From NCBI GenBank assembly GCA_002841995.1, contig PHBS01000007.1, positions 1 through 46,580 of the forward strand: 46,580 bases of DNA. Direction: 5' to 3'. The translations under genes and the position numbers were made by a program. This document shows positions 19,881-22,099 of this stretch, piece by piece. How positions within the stretch are numbered: position 1 is the first letter of the stretch; every line of letters begins with the position of its first letter. The notes beneath the pieces are model-generated. The model worked only from the letters and a program-made list of their open reading frames with translations. It was not told where the DNA came from and did not search any database. This DNA is from Chloroflexi bacterium HGW-Chloroflexi-8 (GTDB lineage: Bacteria > Chloroflexota > Anaerolineae > Anaerolineales > Anaerolineaceae).

Positions 19881-20151
19881 TTTTTCCTCACTGAACTAAA
19901 AAATTGATGCACTTAGTTTTATTACAAAAATTCTTTTATTAATTGATATATTTTTTTAAACTTAAATGGGCTTCAATTAATATGGATTTACGAAAACTTA
20001 GCAAAATAGTTGCATTTCATTAATTATGGATTATGTGATCTATTTAACAAACTCCCAAAAGATAGGACTTACCCGGTCAAAAGGATAGATCACAAATCAA
20101 TAATTTAAATCGAGCGTTAATTCGAGGACTTTTGAACATGATTACTCACAC

Positions 20152-20179
20152 TTGACATAAAATAATCTGTCCATATAAT
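20152..20179 (+). promoter_or_regulatory. Consensus sigma70 promoter of the cysK leader
   Basis: TTGACA (20152-20157) and TATAAT (20174-20179), both perfect, are separated by 16 bp. Transcription should start near 20186, giving a leader of about 215 bases before cysK. The 270 bases from 19881 to 20151 are A+T-rich, and I see no gene there. Confidence 0.85.
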
Positions 20180-20210
20180 TAGGCAAATAATATCTTGTTA
20201 CGGAGAATTT

Positions 20211-20252
20211 ATGAATCTAAATTGCTTGTGTCTTGGGCGGGGTTTAAGCTAA
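20211..20252 (+). CDS. Putative 13-residue Cys-containing leader peptide
   Basis: ATG at 20211 with GGAG 5 bases upstream opens a 13-codon frame, [13 protein letters not shown], ending in TAA at 20250-20252. Two of 13 residues are cysteine (codons 5 and 7) and the last is serine, the precursor of cysteine. It lies between a consensus promoter and cysK-cysE. By analogy with Cys-rich leader peptides reported in mycobacteria and other Actinobacteria, stalling at the Cys codons could report cysteinyl-tRNA supply. The frame is short and could arise by chance; the SD, position and codon content are the support. Confidence 0.55.
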
Positions 20253-20379
20253 CCAACGCCTGAAATCAAATATATATATCAACCATCAAATTCAGGCAGC
20301 GGAAAGCAGCCCCGCACGATTAAAAACAAGTTCTGTGCAGGCGCGGTCGAACCGCTGTTTTGTTTTTTTGATGGTTGAT
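20225..20379 (+). promoter_or_regulatory. Structured cysK leader RNA (candidate attenuator or riboswitch)
   Basis: Nested helices can form: 20225-20229 with 20326-20330, 20237-20242 (GCGGGG) with 20310-20315 (CCCCGC), 20248-20250 with 20298-20300, and 20258-20264 (GCCTGAA) with 20291-20297 (TTCAGGC). The 26-base loop of the last helix contains 20278-20290, which is perfectly complementary over 13 bases to 20367-20379, just 11 bases before the cysK SD. The first two helices overlap the leader-peptide codons, so translation would melt them. The long-range helix invades the T-tract of the hairpin at 20343-20369. No known riboswitch consensus was recognised. Confidence 0.55.
20343..20369 (+). terminator. 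Terminator-like hairpin in the cysK leader
   Basis: A short stem GCGGT/ACCGC (20343-20347 with 20351-20355) is followed by TGTTTTGTTTTTTT. CCGCTG (20352-20357) can instead pair with CAGCGG (20297-20302), which would disrupt the hairpin. It lies upstream of cysK, so it would act as an attenuator. Confidence 0.5.
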
Positions 20380-20400
20380 TATTTTAAATTGGAGAAATTA

Positions 20401-21333
20401 ATGAAAATCGCAAATAATGTTACTGAATTAATTGGAAATACACCTCTTGTCCGATTGAATAAATTGACGGAAGGATTACAAGGAGAAATAGTTGTAAAGC
20501 TGGAATACTACAATCCTGCGCACTCTGTCAAAGATCGCATTGGGGTTGCTATGATCGACGCAGCTGAAAATGCTGGATTACTCCGAAAAGACAGTGTCAT
20601 CGTAGAACCTACCAGTGGGAATACCGGTATTGCTTTAGCCTTTGTTGCTGCCGCCAGGGGATATAAATGTAAAATCGTTATGCCTGAAACTATGTCCAGA
20701 GAAAGAAAACTTCTTATCAAAGCGTTTGGAGCAGATTTAATTCTCACTCCTGGTGCAGAAGGAATGGAAGGCGCAATTCGAAAAGCAAACGAATTAGCAC
20801 GGGAAGACTCAAATGTCTTTATTCCCCAACAATTTGAAAATCCTGCCAATCCTGAGATCCATCGAAAAACAACTGCACAGGAAATATTACGGGACACGGA
20901 TAGCCATGTAGACTATTTCGTTTCCGGTGTGGGAACCGGTGGAACCATTACAGGAGTTGGTGAAGTACTACGGGAAGAAATCCCTGGCGTAAAAATTGTT
21001 GCTGTTGAACCTGCAGAATCACCTGTTTTATCCGGTGGAGTAAAAGGCAAGCACCCTATCATGGGTATTGGTGCGGGATTTATTCCCAAGGTTTTAAATA
21101 CACACATCTATGATGAAATAATACAGGTAAGCGGAGAAGATGCCTTCAAGACCGCTCGACTGATGGCGTCCAAAGAAGGGCTTTTAGTAGGAATTTCCTC
21201 TGGAGCGGCTACTTTTGCAGCATTGGAAATTGCTAAAAGACCAGAAGCAGCTGGAAAGAGAATCCTTGTAATTATTCCGTCGTTTGGAGAAAGATATTTA
21301 AGTACGCCACTCTTTGCTGATCTTGTGGATTAA
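20401..21333 (+). CDS. cysK: Cysteine synthase A (O-acetylserine sulfhydrylase)
   Basis: A 310-residue PLP enzyme making L-cysteine from O-acetylserine and sulfide. PLP lysine K44 sits in [11 protein letters not shown], the substrate loop is TSGNTG (71-76), and the phosphate-binding GTGGTITG is near 175-182. The start is the ATG at 20401 ([20 protein letters not shown]) with GGAG six bases upstream; upstream in-frame codons run through the leader hairpin and are not used. cysE follows 22 bases later. Expression is probably set by the leader described above. Confidence 0.96.
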
Positions 21334-21355: not shown

Positions 21356-22099
21356 ATGAAGAATTGGTTCAATGTCTTGCGCAACGATGTCCAATCTGTT
21401 TTGGATAGGGATCCAGCAGCACGGGGATATCTTGAAATTATTCTGTTATATCCAGGTCTGCATGCGATATGGAGTCACCGCGTCGCACATTGGTTTTGGA
21501 AAAGGAAATTATTCCTTTTCGCTCGGGGGTTATCACAGCTCAGCCGATTCATAACTGGTATTGAAATTCATCCAGGCGCAAAAATTGGTTCAGGTTTCTT
21601 CATAGACCATGGAATGGGTGTAGTGATTGGTGAGACTTCCGAAATTGGAAAAAATGTGACCCTCTATCATGGAGTTACTCTGGGAGGTGTGAGTACCGAG
21701 AAAGGGAAAAGGCACCCCACAATCGAAGACAATGTGGTCGTCGGTGCTGGTGCAAAAATCTTAGGCGCAATCCTGATCGGGAAAGGAAGCCGGGTCGGTG
21801 CAAACGCTGTAGTTGTGTCAGCAGTTCCACCTAATTCCGTTGTGGTAGGTGTTCCAGGTCAGACCGTAAAACGCTCGGTTCCACAAATAAATAATTTACC
21901 CGACCTGCATCATGATCTTCTCCCCGATACAATCGGAAAAACTATTGCAAGTTTGATGGAACGAATGGATAGAATCGAACAAAGCCAATCATTCCCACTT
22001 ACAAACCATCCAAGATTTGTAGCTGGTGATAAGAAGAATGAGGATTTGATTCACATCCCAGTTGACGGAATATGGACAGGAAGTGATTTTAGCATTTAA
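21356..22099 (+). CDS. cysE: Serine O-acetyltransferase
   Basis: CysE (247 residues) acetylates serine with acetyl-CoA, supplying the substrate of CysK. Left-handed beta-helix hexapeptides begin at [19 protein letters not shown] and continue through [20 protein letters not shown] and [20 protein letters not shown]. The start at 21356 ([11 protein letters not shown]) has TGAGGA upstream. The C-terminal tail is about 50 residues longer than in short bacterial forms and ends in isoleucine (WTGSDFSI). In known CysE-CysK complexes the terminal Ile inserts into the CysK active site, so this pair may form a cysteine synthase complex. Confidence 0.95.

Follow-up and report, generated by a model that had tools for sequence, protein, structure and literature searches.

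The leader upstream of cysK-cysE in Chloroflexi bacterium HGW-Chloroflexi-8 very probably acts as a ribosome-mediated, cysteine-specific transcription attenuator, judging from comparison of its sequence with related leaders. The window, that is, the whole stretch of DNA that was analysed, comprises 46,580 nucleotides (contig PHBS01000007.1). Comparison shows that a short leader ORF, its Cys codons, the position of its stop codon, a promoter-like site and a predicted terminator helix with its U-tract are conserved among relatives, with cysteine or sulfur genes downstream. The cysteine attenuation put forward in the original prediction is supported by the ORF, the Cys codons, the covariation and the promoter.

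The cysK leader of the window

All features given here lie on the forward (+) strand. A sigma-70-type promoter-like site with 12 of 12 consensus matches (20152-20179), made of TTGACA (20152-20157), a 16-nt spacer and TATAAT (20174-20179), is followed by a Shine-Dalgarno-like GGAG (20202-20205) and by a leader ORF of 13 codons with a C-x-C motif, which runs from the ATG at 20211 to the TAA at 20250-20252. Its Cys codons are codon 5 (TGC, 20223-20225) and codon 7 (TGT, 20229-20231), and codon 13 encodes Ser. Downstream come the Shine-Dalgarno region of cysK (20390-20396), cysK itself (cysteine synthase A, 20401-21333; TIGR01139, 465.9 bits, cut-off 350.95) and cysE/epsC (serine O-acetyltransferase, 21356-22099; NF041874, 251.9 against 150, and TIGR01172, 245.4 against 210.65), both genes exceeding the NCBIfam cut-offs.

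Several arms of the leader RNA are predicted to pair in alternative combinations. Arm a (GGCGGGG, 20236-20242), within codons 9-11, is near-invariant in 19 aligned leaders and complementary both to arm b (CGCCTGAA, 20257-20264) and to the equally near-invariant arm e (GCCCCGC, 20309-20315). Arm b could pair with a or, as antiterminator, with arm d (TTCAGGCAGCGG, 20291-20302); d could instead form an inner terminator helix with arm g (CCGCTG, 20352-20357), behind which a U-rich run extends from 20358 to 20369. Arms c (20278-20290) and h (20367-20379), perfect complements over 13 nt, would be the 5' and 3' strands of a long-range terminator helix, which leaves the Shine-Dalgarno region of cysK outside; h is followed by TATTTTAA, a modest U-tract. 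The original prediction had named the perfect TTGACA-N16-TATAAT, the GGAG with its 13-codon ORF and the positions of Cys and Ser, a GC-rich arm within the ORF codons and the 13-bp pairing of 20278-20290 with 20367-20379, and all of these were recovered.

The leader (20186-20400) was predicted to fold better than 200 of 200 dinucleotide shuffles (z −3.49). Folding of the piece 20186-20352, which does not contain the 3' arm, was unremarkable (z −1.82, 11 of 200 shuffles equally good), and the long-range helix therefore carries much of the folding signal. A local terminator-like hairpin, GCGGTCGAACCGC (20343-20355), followed by TGTTTTGTTT, was also found (one, against 0.2 expected in shuffles). 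The terminator-like hairpin with T-tract that had been predicted is thus present, but it is probably not the main terminator and was set aside as such: the conserved, covarying terminator stem is probably the long-range c:h helix enclosing d:g.

Distribution of the element

By blastn, related leaders were found within the family, and cysK adjoins the match in 22 of the 30 loci retained, the window's included. Of 147 family genomes, 79, from 28 of 40 genera, matched a covariance model built from nine leaders (eight before cysK, one before cysE), and the other 68 gave no match. Across the phylum, 34 of 400 sampled genomes matched: 31 belong to the same order (the window's own included), two more to the same class, and one, L105 (genome G187, 28.2 bits), lies outside the class. 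This last match is likely a false positive, without ORF; it was left out of the helix, distance, U-tract, codon, promoter and footprint tests, and is included in the ORF, stop-codon and downstream-gene counts. Antisense matches of the model, which overlap sense matches and arise from the element's inverted symmetry, were disregarded.

A scan of 84,980 species genomes with an exact pattern, consisting of both fixed Cys codons and both GC-rich arms, returned 72 stretches, all from Chloroflexota. Their titles name Chloroflexi/Chloroflexota or Anaerolineae taxa, and the placement of Longilinea, Anaerolinea and Villigracilaceae was checked. In total, 178 elements were reduced to 137 unique ones by identical core. 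For the helix tests, the 132 elements with a recognisable arm e and sufficient 3' sequence were reduced by shared 8-mers to 90 representatives, 74 of them found by the model. Further pattern matches at G136:C2, G126:C40 and G139:C14 come from one genus and are alike over 80 bases; two of them are in one genome.

Conservation of the leader ORF and of its Cys codons

Whether the ORF and its Cys codons recur in relatives had been named as a test of the original prediction, and they do: an ATG-started ORF with C-x-C is present in 105 of 106 covariance-model matches. Within 60 nt upstream, the closest ATG lies in frame in 102 of the 103 unique elements that the model found, although its distance varies. 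All three stop codons are used (TAG 65, TAA 55 and TGA 16 in 136 unique elements), and 64 of 73 leaders have the stop 18 or 21 nt from the second Cys codon. The codon between the two Cys codons varies in all three positions, encoding L, M, I, V, S, T or A. The C-x-C is mostly followed by x-x-Arg-Gly, with AGG, GGG, CGG, TGG and others as the codon before Arg; Arg-Gly is broken in a few leaders, for instance L022, L069, L091, L095 and L102.

Choice of the Cys codons was counted in the 103 unique model-found elements, excluding the pattern-scan loci, where these codons were fixed beforehand. The first is TGC in 97 and TGT in 6, and the second is TGT in all 103. As a check on whether the model had imposed this, the family was searched with TGC as the second Cys codon. 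This version matched 0 of the 147 genomes and the TGT version matched 61, a count that includes G068, whose sole match (G068:C13) looks unrelated, as does the match G069:C14. Background usage in 130 downstream genes is 108 TGC to 24 TGT (70 to 14 in the 83 genes with at least 55% GC). The window itself is AT-richer and TGT is commoner there (44 against 23 TGC in 33 ORFs), so that the invariance of UGU is telling in the GC-richer relatives and not from the window's genome alone. The GCA anticodon reads TGT by wobble, and a GCA tRNA is the one tRNA-Cys among 41 tRNA matches in the window's genome, which is 93% complete. The invariant second TGT is likely the sensor codon. With this invariance, codon-level tuning of attenuators becomes directly testable.

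Even lineages with a preference for TGC keep TGT as the second Cys codon; selection could act on the codon or on the RNA sequence.

Promoter and translation signals in relatives

A sigma-70-type site (at least 9 of 12 matches) was located no more than 90 nt upstream of the leader ATG in 95 of the 101 relatives with enough sequence. Of 101 pieces of downstream coding DNA, which served as a lenient control and differ in composition, 1 contained such a site. A transcription start beyond 20252, which the original prediction had listed as evidence against itself, is unlikely because in these 95 relatives the promoter precedes the leader ATG.

A Shine-Dalgarno-like site stands before the leader ORF in 52 of the 101 relatives. 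The -10 box ends at most 10 nt from the leader ATG in 10 of the 95 with a promoter, and these 10 leader mRNAs may be leaderless, to judge by this spacing. Such a box, about 10 nt or less from the ATG, is seen in L052, L057, L084, L115, L121, L122 and others, which suggests that the same element is leaderless or SD-led depending on lineage.

Comparative support for the helices

Unconstrained RNAalifold on 16 aligned leaders yielded the helices a:b and c:h together with a short hairpin of d with e; b:d and d:g were both absent from the prediction. Changes on both sides were found in 7 of 10 c:h pairs (alignment A5), which are the compensatory changes that the original prediction had named as its test. 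One b:d pair changed on both sides (U-A to A-U, in five sequences), as did one a:e pair and no a:b pair. In the covariation summary, four of five measures beat all 500 shuffles, and the fifth, further pair types, did no better than the shuffles (298 of 500).

An alignment-free test compared the fit of each leader's 5' strand to its own 3' strand with the fit to those of other leaders, as the mean longest Watson-Crick run, over 2000 permutations. For c:h the mean run was 8.66 in the 90 representatives against 5.69 when permuted (best permutation 6.14), and among the 74 found by the model it was 8.70 (5.69 when permuted, best permutation 6.20). For d:g, whose test region slightly overlaps that of c:h, it was 6.11 against 5.03 (best 5.40) and 5.91 against 5.01 (best 5.39), respectively. 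The putative antiterminator b:d gave 5.74 against 5.11 (best 5.52) in the 90 and 5.55 against 5.17 in the 74, the latter below the best permutation (5.58). A control helix in the 90 representatives gave 5.17 against 5.17; in another control, b against the 3' part of the leader, 4.58 was above the permutation mean of 4.32 and below the best permutation, 4.66. Arms a and b fitted barely better than cross pairs (5.32 against 5.04; with G-U pairs 6.70 against 6.55, p 0.16). Extension of a:e was near expectation (49% against 43%, 54% against 48%), and with its complement near-invariant the a:e helix was not accepted as a proven element.

On these data the predicted long-range helix covaries strongly, and the putative antiterminator b:d is less well, only moderately, supported. 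An uninterrupted c:h run of 8 bp is absent in 27 of the 90 representatives (32 of 90 with d left out). Among the 63 leaders with a run of at least 8, 60 have at least four T in the first 8 nt past h, compared with 32% of 8-mers from the same region. The terminator strands in these 63 are about 73 nt apart (median), and h ends a median 32.5 nt before the homologous start of the downstream gene.

Ribosome position and proposed mechanism

Counted from the start of its A-site codon, a ribosome covers about 15 nt. In the window, arm b would accordingly be free with the second Cys codon in the A site and covered with the ribosome at the stop. An unrestricted search in 82 relatives placed the start of d's best partner past the Cys footprint in 62; a ribosome at the stop would cover half or more of that partner in 68, where random placement predicts 49.6. 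When the search was restricted to the region past the footprint, 65 of 76 leaders had half or more of their best b:d strand under the stop footprint, with 37.3 expected. These numbers derive from the 90 representatives, of which 73 have a b:d helix of at least six pairs, and 76 or 82 when arm e is placed slightly differently and the search is wider; that b is free in 73 of 73 is true by construction of the search region. The stalled-versus-finishing ribosome logic of the original prediction therefore fits the window and most relatives (62/82, 68/82).

We infer ribosome stalling, termination, the role of the antiterminator and kinetic antitermination, as follows. With sufficient Cys-tRNA, the ribosome would reach the stop at 20250 and cover arm b, leaving d free for g; c would pair with h, and the resulting long-range intrinsic terminator with its U-rich tracts would end transcription before cysK-cysE. 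With Cys-tRNA in short supply, the ribosome would stall on the Cys codons, most likely on the invariant UGU, and mask arm a. Arm b would then pair with d, withholding d from g and closing a loop around c during the passage of RNA polymerase over the U-rich tracts, and cysK-cysE would be transcribed. The antiterminator would consist of 20258-20264 with 20291-20297, the weakest-supported part of the model.

Folding of the growing window RNA was predicted to follow these two courses. With the RNA masked to 20243, b:d persists until the 3' end is at 20372; with the RNA masked to 20264, d:g has formed by 20358, and c:h follows. Once h is complete, c:h is predicted to be the more stable even with a masked (−42.2 against −31.3 kcal/mol for b:d); antitermination would therefore have to be kinetic or topological, perhaps through capture of c in the b:d loop. 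For the ribosome-free RNA, the predicted intermediate combines a:e with b:d and is ON-like. A more specific proposal is tentative and somewhat doubtful in our eyes: the element would define a phylum-specific cysteine regulon, its sensor would be the invariant, wobble-read UGU beside UGC, and antitermination would trap the 5' strand of the terminator topologically in the antiterminator loop, rather than act through base competition alone.

Alternative explanations

Control of the same leader could be exerted on translation initiation of cysK, or through Rho, instead of an intrinsic terminator. The modest U-tract behind h in the window would agree with this, as would the mycobacterial Cys leaders, for which the available part of PMC1262725 reports no conserved terminator hairpins. 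However, the 3' arm, ending at 20379, stops short of the Shine-Dalgarno region (from 20390), h lies a median 32.5 nt from the gene start, and 60 of 63 leaders have a U-rich tract behind h, so we regard this explanation as unlikely. The original prediction had itself offered a metabolite riboswitch of unknown class; its ligand might be cysteine, O-acetylserine or sulfide, and the ORF would be contained in it by chance. Highly conserved arms (GGCGGGG and GCCCCGC), alternative helices with a terminator, and the predicted switching of the ribosome-free RNA itself are what such a riboswitch would have. But what is conserved on the 5' side is a reading frame, with its Cys codons and an in-frame ATG at variable distance (102/103), the stop position is kept while TAA, TAG and TGA exchange, and the middle codon varies at all positions; these observations, together with the lack of an Rfam match, disfavour a riboswitch and make it very unlikely.

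The leader peptide itself might act, by arrest or by thiol or metal sensing through the nascent C-x-C, instead of Cys-tRNA supply. Two Cys one residue apart, mostly followed by x-x-Arg-Gly, could be read in this way, but the signal lies at the level of the codon, the second Cys being always UGU. The codon before Arg varies, so that conservation is confined to the bases of the RNA arm; a few leaders have no intact Arg-Gly, and seven different residues occupy the middle position. We hold action of the peptide to be the least probable of these explanations, and retain cysteine-specific attenuation by a translating ribosome.

Relation to known regulatory systems

T-box and SAM riboswitches control cysteine and methionine genes in other phyla. 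Unlike these and other known riboswitch classes, the element matches no Rfam model: Rfam covariance models gave no match at gathering scores in the whole window, and ranking by E-value gave for 20150-20420 only scores of 15.2 and 12.1 bits, on the minus strand, to unrelated families and at chance level.

In trp-type attenuators, leader codons and alternative helices are combined with a U-tract terminator and with a stop placed so as to mask arm 2. All of these traits are predicted for the element, the mutually exclusive antiterminator helix with less support than the others. It differs in the distance of about 73 nt between the terminator strands, in the predicted placing of the 5' terminator strand inside the antiterminator loop, and in the ON-like intermediate predicted for the ribosome-free RNA, which is unlike the textbook case. 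Its predicted working is that of a trp-type attenuator, and by the features tested it is outside both published Cys families.

Cys leader peptides have reportedly been described in Actinobacteria by Canestrari et al. in 2020. The available part of PMC1262725 describes them in Mycobacterium, Propionibacterium and Bifidobacterium, along with actinobacterial cases of trp attenuators. As here, a short ORF with Cys codons lies ahead of cys operons or cbs; as far as that text goes, a run of Cys codons lies close to the stop and conserved terminator hairpins are not reported, whereas the present element has C-x-C and a covarying terminator helix with U-tract, and a few relatives also look leaderless. 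In Rhodobacterales, the uORFC-8-2 motif upstream of cysS is a predicted ribosome-mediated Cys attenuator, sharing with our element a short uORF that contains Cys codons, a structured RNA and a run of U at the 3' side (PMC8632094, available part). According to the same part of that paper, its Cys codons are in tandem at about positions 14-15 with UGC dominant, and it occurs before cysS only and in Rhodobacterales only; in contrast, C-x-C with an invariant second UGU, cysteine-synthesis and sulfur genes, and Chloroflexota are found here.

Cys attenuation is thus known from Actinobacteria and Rhodobacterales, and we did not find the present family, gene set or long-range terminator in print in the open-access literature. 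In particular, no report of the element in Chloroflexota was found in the available parts of that literature, including PMC1262725, PMC2965389, PMC8632094, PMC3766115, PMC9413887 and PMC13236596; the RNA regulon survey among these includes five Chloroflexi genomes, by the available part of its text (PMC3766115). If our reading is true, ribosome-mediated amino-acid attenuation extends to a deep, mostly uncultured phylum.

Genes downstream of the element

The best of seven tblastn query proteins assigned to the 137 unique elements cysK in 71 cases, a cysM-like gene in 36, a rhodanese-type sulfurtransferase in 12, cystathionine beta-synthase in 6, DUF4395 in 5, cysE in 3 and a nitrite/sulfite reductase in 1; these names rest on one representative each, those of the cysM-like, sulfurtransferase and reductase genes being below the NCBIfam equivalog cut-offs. 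Of the three elements without an assigned gene, two are at contig ends and the other is L105. Cysteine or sulfur genes or DUF4395 therefore follow 134 of 137 elements. The placement of the attenuator ahead of cysK-cysE, as originally predicted, holds in the window, but the gene set in relatives is wider. If true, our reading would define from sequence alone a cysteine regulon (cysK, cysM-like, cysE, cystathionine beta-synthase, sulfurtransferase, DUF4395 and reductase), and would tie DUF4395 to cysteine or sulfur supply.

In L087 and L089, a gene for a DUF4395 membrane protein (PF14340) stands under the element, hinting at a role of this protein in sulfur or cysteine supply. In L043 (G143:C46), from a genus mate, the element lies directly before cysE, and no cysK is present in the stretch examined, as if the operon had lost cysK but retained the switch.
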